54,341 nt of DNA from an uncultured Clostridia bacterium (GTDB lineage Bacteria > Bacillota > Clostridia > Christensenellales > Borkfalkiaceae). Within the stretch, counting starts at the first letter, position 1, and each line of letters opens with the position of its first letter. The notes beneath the pieces were generated by a model. The model did no database searches, was not told where the DNA came from, and was given only the letters and a program-made list of their open reading frames with translations. Where the stretch lies: positions 1 to 54,341 of the forward strand of contig CALVST010000009.1 in assembly GCA_944359365.1 (NCBI GenBank), in the 5' to 3' direction. Made by a program: the position numbers and the translations under genes. Of the stretch, positions 8,556 to 52,031 are shown in pieces.

Positions 8556-10227
8556 CTTTTCGCTCCTCGGCGCATTGCTCAGAAAAAACAGGCAGGAACG
8601 TGCCGCCGCTTTCAAAAAAGGGAACTTCAACGCCGTTGGGTTTATTTTCCGCGTACTGCTTACGCTCGTGCTCATCGCGGTGTTCGTTGTATTTTTCGGC
8701 GAATTTTTGGAAATTTATCTGAAAGTGGAAACGGGCGGCGCTGCGGATACTTCCGCGCGCCTGTACGAGGTGCTTACCATCGTCTACGCCGCGGTGCTGA
8801 TCGCCATGATCGTCGGCGCAATTTCTCAGATCAATCGCGCGCTCTTTTCGGCGGACGACATAAAAATCATGTCGGCTTTGCCCGTCGGCGCAAAAACTCT
8901 GTACGTTTCCAAGCTCATCACCATATATTTGAGTCAGCTGGTCTTCGCGCTCGTATGCGTATCGGCAATTAACCTGACCGCCGCCGTGCATGCGCCGCAG
9001 GGCGGAACTTTTTATATCTTTACGGTGCTTGCGTGCCTGTTTTTGCCCCTGCTTTCGGTGGGCGTGGCGTCCGTGCTCGCGCTTCCCTTCCACGCCGTTA
9101 AAACGGCGCTCAAAGACCGCTTTGTTCTGAGTTTTATCGTCATTACCGTCGTTACGGCGGCGCTTTTGCTTGTATACGCGTGGCTTTTGCGGGGCGTTAA
9201 AGAGCTGCTCCTCGGCGACGATCTTCGGTACTTTTTCAATGAAAGCGTTATGGCGTCCGTCGCGGCGCTCGTTTCCGCGCTCGTTCCCGCCAATTTTATT
9301 GCGGGGATACTGTTGGGCAGAAACGTGCTTGTCGGCTCGGTGGCGGTTTTGGCGGCGCTGCTTGTATGCACGGTGCTTTCGCTGTTCTTCATCCGCCTTA
9401 TTTTGGCTCGCGCGATGCAGTCGCGCATTTCCGGCGGCGGGAACGCCGTCAGGCGCAAAAAGGGGCTGAAAAAACAGCATTCGCCCTTAGCGGCGCTCAT
9501 GAAAAAGGAATTTTTGATGATCTTCCGCACGCCGAACTACATGTTTTCCTACTTTGCGGTCGCGCTCGTCGTGCCGCTCATGGTCTATTTTTGCATGTCG
9601 ATAGGCTCTTCGCTCGTCGTGCGGCTGATCGCCGTGCAGTGCGATTTAGAGCTCGCCGTCTTTCTTTCCCTGCTTTTCGGTTCGCTTGCGAACGTATTCT
9701 GCACGACCAACATCAGCCGCGACGGCGCCATGTTCTACTCCGTCAAGGCGATGCCCGTAGATCCGAAAACGGTCATCTTTTCCAAAGTTTTGCTGTGCCT
9801 TGTCGTCACGGCGCTTTCACAGCTTTTGTCTGCGGCGCTGCTGTGCGTTACGGGGTATCTGAGCGTGCCGTACGCGTTCTTTCTCTTTGCCGTCGGCGCG
9901 CTGTTCGGGTTCGCGCAGATCTGCATTGCCACGCGCATCGATTTTTCATACGCCAAATTTTCGACCGAGCCGGACGGGGAAATTAAAGAGTCGGGCAATA
10001 CGGTCAGCATTATGATCGTTGCGGGGCTGGTCATCTCCTTTTTGGTAGGGGGCGCGGTCGTGCTGATACGCATGATGTTCGCACTGCGCGGGCTTGCGGG
10101 GCAATTCGCGTATCTTACATTCGTCGTCGCGGGCGTGGTCGCGCTCGTTTCCGCGGCGTTGGGGTATTTCTTCCTGATGCATAATCTGAAGGTGCGCTAT
10201 TACCGTTTCAGCGGAGGTTGGTTATGA
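8539..10227 (+). CDS. ABC exporter permease
   Basis: The 562-residue integral membrane protein starts at ATG 8539 inside the end of the ATPase gene. Two similar halves, each with about six hydrophobic segments, are separated by a basic cytoplasmic loop (RISGGGNAVRRKKGLKK, around residues 305-320) followed by a second amphipathic entry motif, KEFLMIFRTPNYMFSY, typical of ABC-2 family permeases. It ends in an ATGA overlap with the next gene. It resembles the large two-half clostridial ABC exporter subunits. The substrate cannot be read from the sequence. Confidence 0.8.
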   Translation: MKDRLDFSLLGALLRKNRQERAAAFKKGNFNAVGFIFRVLLTLVLIAVFVVFFGEFLEIYLKVETGGAADTSARLYEVLTIVYAAVLIAMIVGAISQINRALFSADDIKIMSALPVGAKTLYVSKLITIYLSQLVFALVCVSAINLTAAVHAPQGGTFYIFTVLACLFLPLLSVGVASVLALPFHAVKTALKDRFVLSFIVITVVTAALLLVYAWLLRGVKELLLGDDLRYFFNESVMASVAALVSALVPANFIAGILLGRNVLVGSVAVLAALLVCTVLSLFFIRLILARAMQSRISGGGNAVRRKKGLKKQHSPLAALMKKEFLMIFRTPNYMFSYFAVALVVPLMVYFCMSIGSSLVVRLIAVQCDLELAVFLSLLFGSLANVFCTTNISRDGAMFYSVKAMPVDPKTVIFSKVLLCLVVTALSQLLSAALLCVTGYLSVPYAFFLFAVGALFGFAQICIATRIDFSYAKFSTEPDGEIKESGNTVSIMIVAGLVISFLVGGAVVLIRMMFALRGLAGQFAYLTFVVAGVVALVSAALGYFFLMHNLKVRYYRFSGGWL

Positions 10228-13200
10228 GAAAAAATATTATCGCACTGATGCTTGTTCTTCCGCTGTTGTTCGTGTTCGTCGTGTTTTCTTCGGGCAACGC
10301 GGCGAGCCTGGGCATTTCCGTTTCTGCAAGCGGCATCGTGATTCGGAACGCCCCCGAGGGCGGCCTGCATATCGACCTTGCGGAATATGATAACGACTTC
10401 CGTGTAGCCGCCGAAGTTTTGCCCGAAAACGCGTCGGATAAAAGCTTTTCGTATCGCGTGGAAGAGGTGGAAGGCTCTGCTTTTGCAGACGTCACGGTAG
10501 ATGAGGACGGCACCGTGCACGCACAGAGCGCCGGTTCGGCGCGCATCGTCGCCGTCAGCAACGACGGCGCTTATACCGACAGCATGACCGTCGTCGTCTC
10601 CTCTTCCAAGCCTTACGATATGAGCGTTTCGCTTTTTGAACCGTCGGGGGAGAAAGATCTGCTGACGGAAACGGAAGAGGGATACGAAGCTACCCTTTCC
10701 ACGGGCGTCTATCGGTACAGCACGGCGCTTTATCCGAGCGGCTTTGCCGAGGCGGAAGTGAATGTGGAGAGCGGGTTTGCCGTCTTAGACGGAGATACCG
10801 TACTTCTCCCGTTTGAAGGGGATACGGTGCTTTCCTTTACCGTGCAGGACGGCGCTTTCGGCGCCATCGTCCGCCGCGTCACGCTGCACGCTGTCAGCCC
10901 GGTCACCGTTTCGGGCATCACCGTAAACGGCGCCGCGTCCGTCACCCTTTCCGTAGAGCAGGAAAGCGGCTTTGCGGCTTTCTATGTGCAGGCGGACGAG
11001 GAGCCGGTCATAGAGGAGAATGAAAACATTGCGAGCGCCCGCGTTTCTCCCGTAAATGAGGCGGGCAGCGGCTGTTATATCGTCGAAATCAGCTTTGCCG
11101 AAAACCGCGGCGACGAGTTTTCTTTCGCCGTTCTCGCGGGAGAGGGGCGCGCGGAAGTCACCGTTTCTTTTGAAGAATTTGCATTCGACGTGCGTTCCAC
11201 GCTCCCCGTGCAGGGCGGAGACGTCGTCATGCTTGCGGGCAGCCCCGTCACCTTTTTCGCGGTGCCTTCCGTCATTGCCGACGGCGTGACTTTCGAATGG
11301 GAAGCGAAAGACGTTTCGCTCGAAAGCGCCGGCGTTTCCCTCCAACCGACCGCCTCGTCCTGCACCGTTACGGCGAACGGCACGGGCACCTTCACGCTCG
11401 TCGTTACCCCGTACAGGAACGGCTACGCGCTCGACGTTTACCCCGTAGAAATTGCAATAGAGGTCGTGCGCGACGTAACTTCCGTGGTCATCGGGAATCG
11501 TACCGACGTGGGGCTTGCGGGCATACTTACGGTGCCCGGGCTCACTTATAACGAAAAGGGCGCCGCCGAGGCGTATACTTACGAGCTCGATGTGCGCACA
11601 TATCACAATACCGACGAAATATCAGCGCTTGCGGATCTCGATTTTTCCGTTTCCGACGAATCCCTCGCTTCGCTTACCGTAACGGATGAAAAAGTGTTCC
11701 TGCGCGCCGTGGGCACGGGTAAAGTTACCGTTACGCTCGCGTGGACGGGCAACGAGGCATTCGGCAGGAACGTTTCGGTTTCCCTTACGTTAAACGTCGT
11801 GGCGGACGGCGTTCTGTGCGATACGAGCAAAGAAGTGTTTGCCGCATCCGACGCTAAGCCTTCGCCGCCCATTGTTTTAGGTGCGGATATCATGCTCGGA
11901 GAGGATATAAAGGACGATGTGGATGCGCTCCGTGCCCGCCTCGGCAGCATGAAGTCCACATACAACATTGAATTTTATAAAAACAACGGCATAGAACAGC
12001 AGGCTGTCGTAAATTATGTTGTAGAATTTAAAAACGACGTTTACGGCAACGGGTTTACGCTCAACGCCGAGTATTTTACGAATAAGAAAGACGGCTCGGG
12101 CATACCCTTGCTGTACCGCGGCCCGCTGCACTTTGTCAGCTTCGGAGAATTGGCGAGCGTTGCCGCGCAGGACAATATCTCTTATCTCGTCAGGACGGAC
12201 GGCGTTACCCTTTATAACGTTACGCTCCTCGGGTGCAGCGATTCTTCTTTGGAAGAAGACGGGCAGTATAAATTGGAATACCTCAACAATATCGGCACCG
12301 TGCTCGAAATCAATGCAGACTGCGAAGTTTTGAATTGCCGCGTCCGCAACGGCAGGACGGTCATGCGCGTTTACGGCGGCAACAGGAACGGGGAGAATTA
12401 TTTCATCGAAAGCCTTTCCCAAAATAAAGGGTGCGACGAGGAGCGCATAAACGTGCGCATCGAGGGCTGCGTCGTGTCGCAGGGCAGAGAATTTCTTTTA
12501 AAGCTCGGCGCGAACCGAGCGCTCCGCGCAAATACCGCCAACGGCATGGAACCCGATCTGACGGATGCGAGCGGCGCGCCTTATGCCGTGCCCGATGTCG
12601 CGGCAGGGAATGCCTATCTCGGCGACGAGTATTTTTACCGCATGTACGTCATGACAGACGTTACCTTAAAAAACAGCGTCCTTGAAACGAGCGGGCTGTT
12701 TACTGTGGGAGTGGAAGCCAACTTTTCGGGTGTCGTGCTCGCGCAAAACACCGCCGAGGGCAGCGACAATTTCAACGGTTGGCCCGGTACGGGAGGCACA
12801 TCGTTTGCGTCTGTTCTGCGGGTGGAAGGGGATGTGCGCATGTACGATTGGAAGGATATTTCCCTTATAGACAGCAGCACCCTGATCGATTCGCAGCTTA
12901 CGCAGTTCAAACTCGACATCGGCGGCATGCTTAAATTTGCAATGGGATTTCGCCCCGAGGAGTACGGCGATATCATCGCGTCGTATGAGGGAAAGCAGGT
13001 CGTGCACGGCGGCATCGCCGTTTACGGCGGCGGTAAAAATTACGCGCAGGTAGATTTCGGCGGCATGAATGGTTCGCTGACGGATTTTTCCAAATACGGC
13101 GTAGAACTTGCCATTTTACAGTATGCAGACGATGACGCGATGCAGGAACAGGGGAAATTTTTGCCTGTCGCCGCCGGCTCGCAAAAATTCCGCTTCTATA

Positions 13201-13298
13201 TGTACGGGAACGGCAGTGGAAACAGTTATCAAAAGCAGATCGCGGATGCTGCCGCAGGGATAAAATATAACGGGATATCGCACATATCCGTCTTTTAA
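10224..13298 (+). CDS. exported Ig-like / beta-helix surface protein
   Basis: The start is ATG 10224, seven bases after GGAGG (10213-10217) and overlapping the permease stop as ATGA. The 1024-residue product has an N-terminal signal (MRKN, a hydrophobic core, then SSGNAAS). Residues 30-130 and several later stretches look like bacterial Ig-like (Big_2-type) domains: DVTVDEDGTVHAQSAGSARI and FSVSDESLASLTVTDEK. The part after residue about 560 has repeated turns and asparagines like a right-handed beta-helix (YNVTLLGCSDSSLEEDG). There is no lipobox, LPXTG or S-layer motif, so anchoring is unclear; the uncleaved signal may serve. Coupling to the ABC permease argues that protein and exporter act together, perhaps as an envelope complex. 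Confidence 0.8.
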   Translation: MRKNIIALMLVLPLLFVFVVFSSGNAASLGISVSASGIVIRNAPEGGLHIDLAEYDNDFRVAAEVLPENASDKSFSYRVEEVEGSAFADVTVDEDGTVHAQSAGSARIVAVSNDGAYTDSMTVVVSSSKPYDMSVSLFEPSGEKDLLTETEEGYEATLSTGVYRYSTALYPSGFAEAEVNVESGFAVLDGDTVLLPFEGDTVLSFTVQDGAFGAIVRRVTLHAVSPVTVSGITVNGAASVTLSVEQESGFAAFYVQADEEPVIEENENIASARVSPVNEAGSGCYIVEISFAENRGDEFSFAVLAGEGRAEVTVSFEEFAFDVRSTLPVQGGDVVMLAGSPVTFFAVPSVIADGVTFEWEAKDVSLESAGVSLQPTASSCTVTANGTGTFTLVVTPYRNGYALDVYPVEIAIEVVRDVTSVVIGNRTDVGLAGILTVPGLTYNEKGAAEAYTYELDVRTYHNTDEISALADLDFSVSDESLASLTVTDEKVFLRAVGTGKVTVTLAWTGNEAFGRNVSVSLTLNVVADGVLCDTSKEVFAASDAKPSPPIVLGADIMLGEDIKDDVDALRARLGSMKSTYNIEFYKNNGIEQQAVVNYVVEFKNDVYGNGFTLNAEYFTNKKDGSGIPLLYRGPLHFVSFGELASVAAQDNISYLVRTDGVTLYNVTLLGCSDSSLEEDGQYKLEYLNNIGTVLEINADCEVLNCRVRNGRTVMRVYGGNRNGENYFIESLSQNKGCDEERINVRIEGCVVSQGREFLLKLGANRALRANTANGMEPDLTDASGAPYAVPDVAAGNAYLGDEYFYRMYVMTDVTLKNSVLETSGLFTVGVEANFSGVVLAQNTAEGSDNFNGWPGTGGTSFASVLRVEGDVRMYDWKDISLIDSSTLIDSQLTQFKLDIGGMLKFAMGFRPEEYGDIIASYEGKQVVHGGIAVYGGGKNYAQVDFGGMNGSLTDFSKYGVELAILQYADDDAMQEQGKFLPVAAGSQKFRFYMYGNGSGNSYQKQIADAAAGIKYNGISHISVF

Positions 13299-27866: not shown

Positions 27867-28655
27867 ATGATCGCCGATTTTCACAACGATTTTCTTACCG
27901 AAGGGAAAGGCTCTCTTTCCGATATCGCTTGCAAGGCAAAGTATATGGTATGCGCGCTGTATCGCGGAGCCCGGAGTGACGGGGAAGTCGTAAAATTGCT
28001 CCGCCGTTTCCGCACGGAGCATGCGAATAATCAATTTTTAGGGTTGGAAGACGCGGGATACATCGTCCGAATTGGTGCGGAAACGGTCGCCCGATATTCA
28101 CCTGTTTATGCGTCGCTGACTTGGAATTTTGAAAACGAATTGGCGGGCGGGTGCTTGGAAGACACGGGGTTGAAACGAGCGGGAGCGGAAGCTGTCCGTC
28201 AATTGACTTCTTTGGGGATCGCCGTCGACTGTGCGCACCTCGGGAAAAGAGCTTTTGCCAAGGTCATGGACATGACGGACATGGTCGTTGTTTCGCACGC
28301 CTGTTCGGCGGCGCTTTATCCGCATCCGCGCAATTTGGAGGATCGGCAGGCGCAGGAGATTGTGTCTCGCGGAGGAATGATAGGCATTACTTTTGTCGGT
28401 TCGTTTTTATCAAAACGTCCGTCAGCAGAAGATGTTTTTGCGCATGCCGATCATTTTGTACAAAAATTTGGTCCCGAATATTTTTGTTTCGGGACAGATT
28501 TCTACGGGAGCGACGATTTGCCCGATGGGTTGAAATGCTTTGCGGATGCTGACAGGCTGCACACATATTTTATGCGTGCGGGGTACGAAAAATCTGTCAT
28601 AGACAGATTATTTGTCATAAATCTCCGCAACTATCTTTTAAGAAATCGACATTAA
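27867..28655 (+). CDS. M19 family membrane-dipeptidase-like protein
   Basis: This 262-residue TIM-barrel metallopeptidase homologue is shorter than the 310-400 residues usual for renal-dipeptidase relatives. The binuclear zinc ligands appear retained: H6-x-D8 (DFHNDF), bridging Glu61 (GLEDAG), His144 (VSHACS) and His153 (HPRNLED), plus Asp211 (FGTDFYGSDD). The normal D-x-SH after the third strand reads VDCAHLG. No signal peptide is seen. No Shine-Dalgarno sequence precedes ATG 27867; instead AT-rich -10-like boxes (27851-27862) lie directly upstream, so a leaderless transcript is possible. The substrate could be a D,L- or cyclic dipeptide. Confidence 0.82.
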   Translation: MIADFHNDFLTEGKGSLSDIACKAKYMVCALYRGARSDGEVVKLLRRFRTEHANNQFLGLEDAGYIVRIGAETVARYSPVYASLTWNFENELAGGCLEDTGLKRAGAEAVRQLTSLGIAVDCAHLGKRAFAKVMDMTDMVVVSHACSAALYPHPRNLEDRQAQEIVSRGGMIGITFVGSFLSKRPSAEDVFAHADHFVQKFGPEYFCFGTDFYGSDDLPDGLKCFADADRLHTYFMRAGYEKSVIDRLFVINLRNYLLRNRH

Positions 28656-28694
28656 ATACTTTAAAAACAGCTCTCAGTCTATCGCTATACAAAA

Positions 28695-28701
28695 TTCGAC
28701 A
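28695..28701 (-). promoter_or_regulatory. candidate 0A box (Spo0A site)
   Basis: TGTCGAA on the minus strand matches the 0A box core exactly, about 75 bases upstream of the predicted start of the spo0A-like gene. The 7-mer also occurs inside coding sequence elsewhere (near 3189 and 41453), so chance is not excluded. Confidence 0.45.
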
Positions 28702-28741
28702 AAATTTGTACATAAAAATCAGAATATTTTTACAAATATAC

Positions 28742-28770
28742 TTTACAAATGAAAAACGATGATGTATAAT
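28742..28770 (+). promoter_or_regulatory. sigma-A promoter of the spo0A-like gene
   Basis: TTTACA (28742-28747), a 17-base spacer, TATAAT (28765-28770), 27 bases before the ATG. Confidence 0.75.
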
Positions 28771-28797
28771 CAGTATTACTAAACAGAAAGAGGTCGT

Positions 28798-29574
28798 ATG
28801 TACATGAAAAAAGTCGTTTTGATGGAAAGTAATGGCGATTTTGCGAAAGAAGTTGCCGAGTATTTGAATCGCAGCGGTGTGGAAGTGAGTGGGATCGCGG
28901 ACGACGGCAACGTCGGGCTTGAATTTGTCAAACAGTTTTCACCCGACGTTGTCGTCGTGGGTATGGTACTGAAATCTCTCGACGGATTCGGGGTTTTGGA
29001 CAAGCTTCGCGAACTGTCTTTTAAAAGCAGTATCATAGCGGTCGGCAATTTCAATGACGATGCGCTCGTTTCAAAAATTCTTGCGAAAGGGGCAAAATAT
29101 TATCTGATGAAACCTGTAGCGGCAGAGCTTGTCGGCGAAAGGGTAAAAGAAATGGCGGGCGAGGAAAGGGGAAATACGCCCTCTGCCGGTCTGGGGGTGC
29201 GCGAGAGAAGGAATGCTGTAAGTATTGACGAAAAGATCAGCAATATTTTTATTTCCATAGGCATTCCCGCAAGCATCAAAGGATACGGATATCTGCGAGA
29301 AGGCGTCAAGATGGCGGTCGAAAACCCGTCGATAATCAATAACATCACAAAAGAGCTGTATCCTAAAATAGCGGAAAAATTCAGCACGACGCCGAGTAAA
29401 GTCGAGCGCGCGATCCGCCATAGCATTGAAGTCGCGTTCAATAAAGGCAGGATAGAGGCGATCAATTCCATCTTCGGCGTGCGCGTGTATATCGGTACGG
29501 AGAAGCCCACCAACAGTGAGTTCATCGCTTTGCTTGCGGACAAATTACTTCTGGATGCCGCCTCGGGCAATTAA
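28798..29574 (+). CDS. spo0A: Spo0A homologue with a degenerate receiver domain
   Basis: The 258-residue protein has the Spo0A architecture. The C-terminal DNA-binding domain (about 145-255) is strongly conserved, with IPASIKGYGYLREG, the recognition helix SKVERAIRHSIEVAFNKGR and KPTNSEFIALLADKL. The N-terminal receiver keeps the fold but not the chemistry. The acidic pair (ADDN in Bacillus) reads M-E10-S11-N, the phospho-acceptor aspartate is Gly55 (PDVVVVGMVL, codon GGT), and the switch threonine is Gly83. Only the late lysine (MKPV, Lys105) remains. It therefore cannot be phosphorylated at the usual site. AAAGAGG precedes ATG 28798; ATG 28804 is an alternative. It is monocistronic with its own promoter and terminator. 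Confidence 0.9.
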   Translation: MYMKKVVLMESNGDFAKEVAEYLNRSGVEVSGIADDGNVGLEFVKQFSPDVVVVGMVLKSLDGFGVLDKLRELSFKSSIIAVGNFNDDALVSKILAKGAKYYLMKPVAAELVGERVKEMAGEERGNTPSAGLGVRERRNAVSIDEKISNIFISIGIPASIKGYGYLREGVKMAVENPSIINNITKELYPKIAEKFSTTPSKVERAIRHSIEVAFNKGRIEAINSIFGVRVYIGTEKPTNSEFIALLADKLLLDAASGN

Positions 29575-29594: not shown

Positions 29595-29636
29595 AAAAGC
29601 CGACGGTTTTTGCTTGCAATTCGTCGGCTTTTATAT
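29595..29636 (+). terminator. rho-independent terminator of the spo0A-like gene
   Basis: AAAAGCCGACG (29595-29605) pairs with CGTCGGCTTTT (29622-29632) around a 16-base loop. The tRNA-Leu promoter overlaps the loop and 3' arm. Confidence 0.85.
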
Positions 29637-43949: not shown

Positions 43950-45008
43950 ATGGAACGGAAAAGCTTTTACGACAAGCGAAATTTGCATAATTTAGAAAAA
44001 ATCGAGTACTTGAAAGACGATTTGCCCCCTTTTGTGGATGATTATTTTTTAGGCATCGAAAATCAGACGAGTACGTTGACCAGGCTGAACTACGCTTATG
44101 ACCTGCGCATTTTCTTTGATTACATCGTTAAAAAGGTCTTCAAAAATAAAACCGTGCGTGATCTGACTCTTGCAGATCTTGAAAATATATCGAGTAACGA
44201 TATTGAGCGTTTTTTAAGTTATTTGAGCCATTATGAGTACAATGGTTCCTATGAAAACTGCAATGAGCGCGCCAAGGCCCGTAAATTGTCCACTATTCGC
44301 GCCATGTTTAAATATTTTTTCAAAAAAGAGCGCATAAATGTAGATAATGCCGCAAAAGTTACCATGCCGAAGTTGCACGATAAAGAAATTATTCGGCTTG
44401 AAGTCAATGAAGTCGTCGATCTGCTCAATTGCGCGGAGTCGGGTGACGGCATGACGCAGCACCAACGCGCTTTCCATGAAAAAACACGAGTCAGAGATAT
44501 CGCGATTTTGACGTTGTTTTTAGGAACAGGCATCCGTATCAGCGAGCTTGTCGGGCTGAATAACGACGATATCGACTTTACGACAAACAGTTTCAAAGTA
44601 ACCCGAAAAGGCGGCAACCAGGCGATCCTCTATTTTTCCGATGAAGTCGCGGATGCGCTCGCACGATATATTGCTTTCAAGGAAGACGACAAAAACACGC
44701 CGAGCGGCGAACCCGCCCTGTTCCTCTCGTTAAAAATGCAGCGGATCAGCATTCGCGCCGTGGAGAATCTTGTCAAAAAATACAGCAGAATCGTTACGCC
44801 GTTGAAAAAGATATCCCCTCATAAACTGAGAAGCACATACGGCACGCAATTGTATCGCGAAACCAACGATATTTATATTGTCGCCGACGTGCTCGGGCAT
44901 AAAGATGTCAACACAACGAAAAAGCATTATGCCGCAATCAGTGAAGACCTGCGAAGAGCCGTAGCCGGAAAAGTCCGACTCCGCGAAGATAATGACACAA
45001 ATAAATGA
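43950..45008 (+). CDS. XerS-like tyrosine recombinase
   Basis: The 352-residue product has a SAM-like N-terminal core-binding domain (about 28-130) and the catalytic domain with R196 (GTGIRISEL), K220 (RKGGNQ), H291-x-x-R294 (HKLRSTYG), H317 (LGHKDVN) and Tyr327 (KKHYAAI). It is longer than XerC/XerD (about 300). The spacing and segments such as RDIAILTLFLGTGIRISE and DVTRKGG-like KVTRKGG recall the single-recombinase XerS of streptococci (about 356). No Shine-Dalgarno is seen and the ATG coincides with the predicted transcript start. Chromosome dimer resolution is a reasonable inference, supported by the adjacent 34-bp site; no phage or transposon genes are nearby. Confidence 0.88.
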   Translation: MERKSFYDKRNLHNLEKIEYLKDDLPPFVDDYFLGIENQTSTLTRLNYAYDLRIFFDYIVKKVFKNKTVRDLTLADLENISSNDIERFLSYLSHYEYNGSYENCNERAKARKLSTIRAMFKYFFKKERINVDNAAKVTMPKLHDKEIIRLEVNEVVDLLNCAESGDGMTQHQRAFHEKTRVRDIAILTLFLGTGIRISELVGLNNDDIDFTTNSFKVTRKGGNQAILYFSDEVADALARYIAFKEDDKNTPSGEPALFLSLKMQRISIRAVENLVKKYSRIVTPLKKISPHKLRSTYGTQLYRETNDIYIVADVLGHKDVNTTKKHYAAISEDLRRAVAGKVRLREDNDTNK

Positions 45009-50349: not shown

Positions 50350-50714
50350 ATTTTCGGTAAAGTCAGGCGATAACTCAAATCGACAAGCGACATTGTTTCC
50401 TCCTCGTCTGCCCTGCCGTCCAACGTAATTGTGATCCAATGTGTTTTATTCATGTGGTAGCCTGGAAAAATCGTTGTTCCGTTGCATAGTGCGGCGGCAA
50501 GCATCGGATCACATTTCAAATCGAGGATATCTGTTGAACCGTCTTTGTCTAAACCGAGCTTGCGGTACTCGACTTTCATGAAAACGGCATACCATTTGCC
50601 CTTTTCGCCGTGCCTGCAAACCCCGACATCGGGCGCATTGGCAAACATATAGGCGACGGTTCCGCCGTACTGTTCGGATATGTACTTCTCTATAAAATTT
50701 TTCCTTGCACCCAT
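50325..50714 (-). CDS. MmcQ/YjbR family protein
   Basis: The 129-residue protein has the YjbR (CyaY-like fold) signature: KWYAVFMKV, ILDLKCDP, and FPGYHMNKTHWITITLDG. The family is said to bind DNA non-specifically, but its cell role is unclear. It has its own promoter (50733-50761) and ends inside the lexA terminator. Confidence 0.88.
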   Translation of the reverse strand: MGARKNFIEKYISEQYGGTVAYMFANAPDVGVCRHGEKGKWYAVFMKVEYRKLGLDKDGSTDILDLKCDPMLAAALCNGTTIFPGYHMNKTHWITITLDGRADEEETMSLVDLSYRLTLPKIKKDGSRV

Positions 50715-50732
50715 GCTTGCATCCTTTATTAT

Positions 50733-50761
50733 ACTATATCACTTTTTTGTTGTTTTGACAA
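50733..50761 (-). promoter_or_regulatory. sigma-A promoter of the YjbR gene
   Basis: On the minus strand, TTGTCA (50761-50756), a 17-base spacer and TATAGT (50738-50733). Confidence 0.75.
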
Positions 50762-50829
50762 GCAATCCGTTTTAATTTCAAAGTTCGCACACAGTTTTCA
50801 TATGCCTGAGAATTATTTTTTCATCTCCC

Positions 50830-50858
50830 TTGAAATCGCAAAAAAAGTGTGTTATACT
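50830..50858 (+). promoter_or_regulatory. sigma-A promoter of the sialidase-like gene
   Basis: TTGAAA (50830-50835), a 17-base spacer, TATACT (50853-50858), 27 bases before the ATG. Confidence 0.75.
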
Positions 50859-50885
50859 ACGGATATAAGGATCAGGAGGAAAATT

Positions 50886-52031
50886 ATGGCACTGAAAATC
50901 ACAAGGGAAAATATGGGCGTCGTATTTACGCCGCGCGATGAGGAGGTCTACTCAAATTCGTCGGGCGTGTTGTATCCGCGCGTCATCGAACTGCACCATG
51001 CGGGAAAGCTGAACGGCATGCTGCTTGCTACATTTGACCATTCTACCGTAAAGGAACCGCCCGTCGTACCCGTCATGTCCAGCGCAGACGGCGGCGTAAC
51101 ATGGGAAAAATACAGCCAAATCGAGGATATCCAAAATGGGTTCGGCATTCGTTTTCAGCCCGTCATTTTCGAACTTGACCGCCCCTGCGGAGATCTTCCG
51201 ACAGGTACGATCGTGTTTTCGGGAAATTCCGTTCCCCTAGACTTTACTTCCACCGAACTCGTCTTTTATGTCAGCCGCGATCACGGCAAAACGTGGGAAT
51301 TTCGCTCCTCCGTCGCAAAAGGCGGACCGCCGATCGAGCAGAATTTCGATGCGCTCGGACCGGTATGGGAGCCGAACATCTACATCAACAAGTACGGTGA
51401 ATTGACCATCGCGTTCACGGACGAGCGCCCGCATACAGATCCGCGGTTCAATCAGACGCTCGGACTCGTTACCTCGGCGGACGGCGGCAAAACGTGGAGC
51501 GACGTCGAATATACCGTGACGGTCCCCGACCGCGCGATGCGCCCCGGTATGCCCGTCGTAACGCAAATGGGAAACGGAAAATTCATCATGGTATATGAGA
51601 TCGTCGGAAAGCCCTGCTGCGATATATATTATAAACTTTCCGACGACGGGGTAAATTGGGGCGATCCGCTTTGGGAAGGGAAACGCGTAGAAACGCCCGA
51701 CGGACTTTTTCTCGGCAGTATGCCCTATGTCATTTGGGTACCGCAGGGCGGAAAATGCGGGACGGTCATCGTGACGGCAAAGCGTGAAGGAGAGCATATC
51801 GGCATGCGCGATCCGGGGTTTTATCATGTAAATTATGAATACGGAACGGGCGAATGGCACCGCATCCCCATGCTGATAACATACAATACCGACACTTTGC
51901 AGGCGGGTTGGAGTATGGGCATGACGCTCATGCAAAACGATAAGCTCATCCAATTGGCGCCAACCCCTATCAACAGGCGGCTTATGCAGATCACTTACGG
52001 GATAGGAAAGTTGGAAACAACGGAAAAATAA
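50886..52031 (+). CDS. sialidase-fold (BNR repeat) glycoside hydrolase-like protein
   Basis: ATG 50886 follows CAGGAGGA; a longer upstream frame lacks any ribosome site and crosses the promoter. The 381 residues show Asp-box repeats of the six-bladed propeller: SSADGGVTWEKY, SRDHGKTWEF, SADGGKTWSDV and SDDGVNWGDP. Arg in LYPRVIEL and other Arg/Glu residues (ERPHTDP, VWEPNIY) may form the active site, but the sialidase arginine triad is not certain. No signal peptide, so it would act on imported glycans in the cytoplasm. The GH95 fucosidase relic nearby fits a glycan-use background. Exo-sialidase or a GH93-like arabinanase are options. Confidence 0.8.
   Translation: MALKITRENMGVVFTPRDEEVYSNSSGVLYPRVIELHHAGKLNGMLLATFDHSTVKEPPVVPVMSSADGGVTWEKYSQIEDIQNGFGIRFQPVIFELDRPCGDLPTGTIVFSGNSVPLDFTSTELVFYVSRDHGKTWEFRSSVAKGGPPIEQNFDALGPVWEPNIYINKYGELTIAFTDERPHTDPRFNQTLGLVTSADGGKTWSDVEYTVTVPDRAMRPGMPVVTQMGNGKFIMVYEIVGKPCCDIYYKLSDDGVNWGDPLWEGKRVETPDGLFLGSMPYVIWVPQGGKCGTVIVTAKREGEHIGMRDPGFYHVNYEYGTGEWHRIPMLITYNTDTLQAGWSMGMTLMQNDKLIQLAPTPINRRLMQITYGIGKLETTEK

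Follow-up and report, generated by a model that had tools for sequence, protein, structure and literature searches.

A Spo0A orthologue without a recognisable phosphorylation site in Candidatus Borkfalkia

Spo0A is the textbook output of the phosphorelay. The gene found at positions 28,798–29,574 (+ strand) of the window, the 54,341-bp stretch of Candidatus Borkfalkia DNA analysed here, codes a 258 amino acid-long Spo0A homologue whose phospho-acceptor residue appears to be missing. This raises the question of how such a protein could be controlled, and whether its loss is a peculiarity of one gene or a property of the family. The genome is a metagenome-type assembly of 76 contigs that is 89.7% complete.

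The spo0A gene and its aspartate-less receiver

The ORF was confirmed and scores 234.4 bits with the NCBIfam equivalog model for Spo0A (TIGR02875; cut-off 200). Its initiation codon is possibly the ATG at 28,804, where several relatives start. The gene is preceded by a σA type promoter (TTTACA-17-TATAAT; 28,742–28,770, + strand; 11 of 12 positions), visible by eye in all eight close relatives inspected, and by the ribosome-binding-site-like AAAGAGG (28,787–28,793, + strand), read off the sequence directly. It is followed by an intrinsic terminator hairpin (29,595–29,632, + strand) whose 12-bp stem gives −17.8 kcal/mol (z −4.2) on folding; the consensus terminator scan did not report it because the loop is longer than the scan permits. 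The M19 dipeptidase gene located 5′ of spo0A (27,867–28,655, + strand; PF01244) is a frequent neighbour with no known link. Among 80 named loci the genes 5′ of spo0A code a dCMP deaminase and a PPIase in 18, GroEL/GroES in 17 and the M19 dipeptidase in 15, and the close relatives L093, L099 and L107 have none of these neighbours. The same window encodes a frame of 1026 aa that contains a Big_2 domain (10,218–13,298), a phage-type integrase (43,950–45,008) and a BNR-repeat protein (50,610–52,031).

The best match to the protein (81% identity) comes from a chicken isolate, judging by its title, and named matches at 78–80% identity include Candidatus Borkfalkia avistercoris and stercoripullorum. 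The protein shares with canonical Spo0A (TIGR02875; structures 1qmp, 9phz, 5wq0, 1fc3 and 1lq1) its domain order, its equivalog score and a closely similar DNA-binding domain. The Spo0A_C domain (29,236–29,547, + strand) has a full score of 130.6 bits (130.6–132.9 bits, positions 1–104 of the 104 in the profile) and an intact recognition region, and residues 142–253 align with 1fc3 at E 1.5e-34. It is the single Spo0A_C match of the 89.7% complete genome, in which a second canonical spo0A was sought. The receiver (residues 4–121; 28,807–29,160, + strand) reaches a modest 53.2 bits with Response_reg. The AlphaFold2 model, computed with 31 orthologues (mean pLDDT 83.5, pTM 0.49), has a regular (βα)5 receiver with block means of 83–96 across residues 1–120, a helical DNA-binding domain and a low-confidence linker between them. 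Among its Foldseek matches are the Spo0A receivers 5wq0 and 1qmp and the DNA-binding domains 1fc3 and 1lq1. The prediction is therefore one of a folded receiver devoid of the pocket residues, not of a broken one.

When aligned residue by residue with 9phz, a solved Spo0A receiver, the protein has Gly55 (codon GGT; 28,960–28,962, + strand) at the phospho-acceptor Asp, Glu10-Ser11 (28,825–28,830, + strand) at the Asp-Asp acidic pair and Gly83 (29,044–29,046, + strand) at the switch Thr/Ser. The original prediction had named these residues by eye, together with a near-canonical DNA-binding half and a clean promoter, ribosome site and terminator; all were borne out. In contrast to canonical Spo0A, the protein lacks the Asp at the end of β3, the second residue of the Mg2+-binding acidic pair and the switch Thr/Ser, features that distinguish phosphorylation-activated regulators. 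It keeps Lys105, which corresponds to the conserved Lys at the end of β5 and is a residue that the original prediction had not named. The five other receivers of the genome all carry the full D/E-D-D-S/T-K site. Phosphotransfer signalling is therefore alive in this organism and the loss is specific to Spo0A. From these alignments it is close to certain that the phosphorylation site of the window Spo0A has been lost. On the features tested the protein reads as a Spo0A orthologue and not as a phosphorylation-activated response regulator; profile, alignment and predicted structure agree on a receiver fold without Asp, that of an aspartate-less (pseudo-)receiver.

Extent of the loss and constraint on the protein

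A profile search identified Spo0A_C in 141 of 151 genomes of the family, covering 18 of 18 genera, and gave no match in the other ten. From 109 of the Spo0A_C genomes 110 rows were taken, 109 of which have a receiver (the row of G019 has none, and the receiver-less row of G081 had already been dropped). The Asp column of the 109 receivers holds Gly (31), Ser (27), Asp (26), Glu (15), Asn (9) or Ala (1), Asp being absent from 83. The close relatives agree with the window protein: none of the 17 members of its genus, all separate assemblies, has Asp (12 Gly, 5 Ser). Genus g10 has Ser in 15 of 15 rows, and g4 and g6 have only Glu (2 and 4 rows, respectively). Asp is retained in g2, g15, g17 and g18, in 12 of the 16 rows of g8 and in one of the 13 of g3, and a complete phosphorylation site is found in just two rows of the family, both from g17. 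None of the 69 rows of the larger clade around the window's genus (SH-aLRT 97) has Asp/Glu at the second acidic position, not even those that retain Asp55. Five of the 80 named loci, a set that overlaps with the family genomes, have Asp.

Outside the order, the 30 best-scoring loci of the class comprise 28 with Asp, one with Gly and one fragment, and 40 further loci lower in the list comprise 38 with Asp and two with Glu. Asp is thus present in 66 of the 69 receivers of the combined control and missing from three. It is also found in all six full-length class rows chosen by genome (L250, L256, L257, L258, L263 and L271). Within the same order, family f2 is divided between one genus with the full site and another with Glu, and family f3 has one Spo0A copy with Asp and another with Glu. 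The loss of Asp is thus specific to Spo0A, frequent in this family and infrequent in the sample taken outside it.

A quick Spo0A tree, built without the active-site columns and having many weak branches, requires ten or more transitions between Asp and not-Asp. A single ancestral loss is not supported by this tree, in which loss and regain are indistinguishable. The Glu-bearing f2 genus, g19 (L252–L255; near-complete genomes of ~0.8–0.9 Mb), represents a separate Asp to Glu change with loss of the acidic pair, and SpoIVA is retained in G155, its sole genome tested. Some relatives encode Spo0A_C proteins of about 120 aa that have no receiver. Spo0A_C proteins that are short (about 115–180 aa) and lack a full receiver are found at the family loci L340–L342 and L344–L347, and in the sister family f2 at L265, L267–L269, L274–L276 and L278. 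The genome G066 has two near-identical copies of such a short protein.

The two halves of the protein diverge at different rates. The mean dN over the nine closest orthologues is 0.066 for the DNA-binding domain, which has many invariant residues, 0.30 for the receiver and higher for the linker; only this order of dN was used, the dN/dS ratios having been discarded with dS saturated. The ratio of receiver to DNA-binding-domain divergence has a median of 3.46 (2704 pairs) versus 1.74 in canonical Spo0A (111 pairs, leaving aside the divergent controls L178, L182 and L192, a fragment and an Asp-less row) or 1.80 over 118 pairs once the three divergent controls are restored. These alignments indicate a receiver that diverges about twice as fast as the canonical one, relaxed but not free.

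In the 32 Asp-less rows of the window's genus and g10 the pocket columns have changed. Gly83 (Gly in 32 of 32), Asp62-Gly63, Gly98, Tyr102, Pro106 and Arg115 are invariant, and Asp87-Asp88 invariant or nearly so. Strand β5 is better conserved than in canonical Spo0A (entropy 0.56 versus 0.92) and the other receiver elements are mostly less conserved. Pro59 is replaced by Lys/Arg in 31 of the 32 rows. Canonical rows mostly have Asp/Glu at position 100 (26 of 28) and Lys/Arg at position 114 (18 of 28); here the charges are mostly opposite, with Lys/Arg at position 100 in all 32 rows and Glu/Asp at position 114 in 24 of them. A salt bridge between positions 100 and 114 is only suggestive because other genera do not all show the charge swap.

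0A boxes, kinases and the sporulation genes

An exact 0A box (TTTTGTCGAA; 28,695–28,704, − strand) is present 5′ of spo0A, with a second, weaker 0A-like half site (TTTTGTATAG; 28,685–28,694, − strand) in 10-bp tandem phase with it. An exact 0A core occurs within 250 bp 5′ of spo0A in 47 of 76 loci, compared to a mean of 3.46 and a maximum of 8 in shuffled sequences (n = 50). The set comprises the Asp-less loci and five with Asp, five of the initial 81 having been dropped for too little upstream DNA. For the 73 loci with longer upstream sequence the core was found in 45, 3, 3 and 0 cases in successive 250-bp bins. Additional 0A-like sites (at least 7 of 10 matches) lie around the 47 cores at −20 bp (12), −10 bp (20) and +10 bp (10). 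The region 5′ of spo0A is thus one of putative 0A sites in 10-bp tandem phasing, which the head-to-tail Spo0A dimer requires on DNA (1lq1 complex).

In the window genome an extended 0A box is found 117 bp before spoIIAA. An exact core lies within 250 bp 5′ of this gene in 7 of 19 loci, the window genome included (two of 21 loci were left out; shuffles: mean 0.52, maximum 4, n = 200). No exact 0A box was found 5′ of spoIIGA. There is no enrichment of 0A cores across the whole window and the 0A signal is therefore positional. Promoters without an exact box are those of spo0A in 29 of 76 loci and of spoIIA in 12 of 19. Like canonical Spo0A, whose boxes occur at its own promoter and at that of spoIIA, the window protein thus has 0A boxes, recognised by sequence only, at two known target promoters.

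The window genome encodes six receivers and five histidine-kinase hits (PF02518 search, assembly 89.7% complete), four of them Pfam-confirmed and the fifth a short, below-cut-off fragment adjoining the C7 regulator. The five receivers other than Spo0A each have a histidine-kinase hit no more than about 2.1 kb away. Every kinase hit is thus beside another receiver and none is left for Spo0A. No orphan kinase or Spo0F-like lone receiver was found in this PF02518-only search of the 89.7% complete assembly, which sets the genome apart from canonical Spo0A systems with their phosphorelay or orphan kinases. In the study of Davidson and colleagues, where orphan status serves as a mark of sporulation kinases, a single one of the 48 spore-formers was without an orphan kinase (PMC6136694). 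The clostridial direct-phosphorylation Spo0 described there likewise has no need of Spo0F/Spo0B, but has orphan kinases that act on Spo0A.

Nine Asp-less genomes were sorted by hand for kinases (that of the window, G000, and G002, G006, G009, G010, G013, G014, G016 and G055). A clear orphan kinase was found in one, the genus member G010, and G016 encodes an Hpt protein adjoining a receiver-HD protein. The Asp55-bearing genomes G007, G040 and G064 have two, three and three long frames, respectively, with kinase and receiver together, three of the eight being confirmed by Pfam. The match between Asp state and kinase supply would count as one contrast, and not as proof, because these three genomes belong to one genus and also lack the second acidic residue. 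Unpaired hits of ~610–770 aa or below 280 aa were assigned by size to gyrase, MutL, HtpG and SpoIIAB types, few of them being inspected. An unpaired 845-aa hit of G006 (C19) is a SpoIIE-domain protein; further unpaired frames have 554 aa (G040, C15) and 402 and 874 aa (G064, C11), and in G009 and G016 one long frame each was flagged beside a separate regulator frame. G011 was excluded from the sorting (46 kinase-type and 58 receiver hits). This 2.0-Mb genome, of genus g11, thus has 58 receivers and 46 HATPase hits, and the 12 other family genomes counted have 2–11 receivers. Directly 5′ of spo0A in the Asp55-bearing G007 (L285:2469-7516) lie genes for a receiver-HD protein, a 116-aa frame and a hybrid histidine kinase. 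The 116-aa frame has no Pfam match and is Hpt-like by its place only; the neighbourhood hints at the ancestral wiring of Spo0A.

Downstream of Spo0A the programme appears partly preserved. In NCBIfam searches of the window genome SigE, SpoIIAB and SpoIVA score above their cut-offs, SigK does so by 0.6 bits, SigG is above one of two models, and SigF, SigH and SpoIIGA are best matches below their own cut-offs. The set that marks an endospore former, σH, σF, σE, σG and σK with SpoIVA, is thus present with some factors below cut-off. SigB/F/G-type factors above cut-off are found in 18 of 18 genus members. Full-strength SpoIVA was found in 28 of 37 family genomes tested, with SpoIVA present in most of the genera covered, and, within the genus, in one of nine, that of the window alone. 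In the g1 genomes G010, G028, G043, G056, G085, G093, G118 and G130 it is absent or strongly diverged. No α/β SASP was detected in 43 family genomes or in four other genomes of the order, the class controls being positive in four of four. The family has possibly an endospore programme without these DNA-protecting proteins. Beyond the reach of the original prediction were this combination of sporulation sigma factors with undetected α/β SASPs, the tandem 0A boxes, the scale of the Asp trend in the family with its several changes on the tree, and the missing second acidic residue in those relatives of the clade that retain Asp55.

MAGs grouped with Borkfalkiaceae, chosen first on the presence of spo0A, are treated as potential spore-formers in one study (PMC11536998), and SpoMAG classes Borkfalkiaceae MAGs as non-sporulating (PMC12536801). 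The programme may not yield spores, because full-strength SpoIVA is found in one of the nine genus members tested and α/β SASPs were not found.

Control of a Spo0A that lacks its aspartate

The most probable reading, which we favour with reservations, is a Spo0A that works without Asp phosphorylation and whose output is set by its own level. The protein would be the Spo0A orthologue of a Borkfalkia species in which the usual Asp can no longer be phosphorylated. Its receiver would persist as a folded pseudo-receiver, probably with the dimer-type face kept, and the DNA-binding domain is expected to have kept its recognition of tandem 0A boxes, those before spo0A and, in the window genome, before spoIIAA-spoIIAB-sigF among them. 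DNA binding would then occur without phosphorylation, output would follow the amount of Spo0A, its own 0A boxes would autoregulate the promoter in place of kinases, and Spo0A would still start the σF programme. The isolated DNA-binding domain of canonical Spo0A is active, and freeing or fixing the receiver would therefore be an easy route. The original prediction held that the protein works without the phosphorelay, whether always on, controlled by level or by a ligand. The first part gains support, short of proof, from the missing Asp throughout the genus (17 of 17) and the lack of a detectable lone receiver or orphan kinase; the three options are not separable at the level of sequence, level control with autoregulation fitting best. 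Against this reading stand the twofold receiver divergence, which is also compatible with slow decay, the spo0A and spoIIA promoters that have no exact box, the lack of 0A enrichment across the window, the doubts about spore formation and the Asp-less genomes with an orphan kinase (G010) or an Hpt protein (G016).

The main rival, in itself unlikely, is a pseudo-receiver under a ligand or partner protein, in which binding of a small molecule or protein to a rebuilt receiver controls dimerisation. It would account for a receiver whose constraint persists (dN 0.30, lower than in the linker), for the invariance or near-invariance of Gly83, Asp62-Gly63, Asp87-Asp88, Tyr102 and Arg115 in the 32 Asp-less rows and for the replacement of Pro59 by Lys/Arg in 31 of them, as if the pocket had been rebuilt. 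However, the invariant columns are mostly conserved in canonical Spo0A too, so that no new pocket is evident, and the frequent neighbours (groES/groEL, dCMP deaminase, PPIase, M19 dipeptidase) include no obvious sensor. Slow decay is the other rival, ranked after it and also improbable: sporulation would be eroding in small genomes, with the receiver lost first and Spo0A to go next. The absence of detected α/β SASPs in 43 family genomes, a SpoIVA absent or strongly diverged in eight of the nine genus members tested, the doubled divergence ratio and the ten of 151 family genomes without a Spo0A_C match are all in its favour. Against it speak a DNA-binding domain of dN 0.066 and many invariant residues, a conserved promoter and tandem 0A boxes, Spo0A_C in 141 of 151 genomes and 18 of 18 genera, and σ factors of the SigB/F/G type above cut-off in all 18 genus members. 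The original view that this is not a decaying gene is supported, short of proof, by the conserved promoter and boxes and by the agreement of the 17 genus members; the fast receiver counts against it.

Phosphorylation at another site seems very improbable; an example would be a Ser/Thr of the old pocket, such as Ser11 of the window protein or Ser55 of relatives, modified by a Ser/Thr kinase or through a non-cognate route. In a set of 90 rows Ser is the commonest residue at both positions (27 rows for the Asp column and 44 for the second acidic residue) and the Lys105 column is Lys in 83 of 90 rows and Arg in 7, but Ser is conserved at neither column: the window protein has Gly55, and its Asp-less relatives Gly, Ser, Asn, Glu or Ala. 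Least credible of all is a sequencing or assembly error, or a minor paralogue that coexists with a canonical Spo0A. A metagenome-type assembly of 76 contigs, 89.7% complete, leaves some room for either, and some relatives do have a second Spo0A_C. Yet the missing Asp is shared by all 17 genus members, which come from separate assemblies, the window genome has a single Spo0A_C match, the upstream gene order is common to up to 18 named loci and the full-length second copy in G141 is likewise Asp-less. Error and minor paralogue, which the original prediction had named as what would refute it, are thus rejected as far as an 89.7% complete assembly allows.

GlnR, FrzS and other proteins have aspartate-less or atypical receivers, in which the fold is kept without the phosphorylation pocket. 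The case described here differs in that it concerns Spo0A, the archetypal phosphorelay output, and the majority of the genera examined in one family. Receivers without Asp are familiar as a class; the literature searches, judged by titles and abstract openings, turned up no report of an Asp-less Spo0A or of such a trend throughout a family. A close parallel is Epulopiscium type B, also a gut symbiont that keeps sporulation genes with the late ones reduced and in which known Spo0A kinases were not found (PMC3416734). The same source indicates that Epulopiscium retains the phospho-acceptor residues and SASP genes, whereas in Borkfalkia the Asp is gone and α/β SASPs were not found.

The presence of spo0A serves as a marker of spore formation (PMC11536998, PMC8340488) and, as the second of these studies warns, does not confirm it alone (PMC8340488). 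Our data add that the gene need not imply a phospho-switch that works. Related genera, with Asp, Glu, Asn, Ser or Gly at a single column, form a mosaic ready for comparison, and a natural Spo0A without its site, accompanied by sigma factors and conserved 0A boxes, makes development by regulator level alone testable. A wider reading, speculative and rather unlikely, would be that a large part of the family uncoupled entry into endospore-type development from phosphosignalling. Spo0A would there be a constitutive, self-regulated protein that lost its site more than once and drives a remodelled sigma cascade without α/β SASPs and, in some species, without a normal SpoIVA coat base, in an engulfment-derived process other than resistant-spore formation. 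In gut Borkfalkia and most of its examined relatives the master switch of spore formation has been kept and its activating residue lost, and the switch is probably controlled otherwise.
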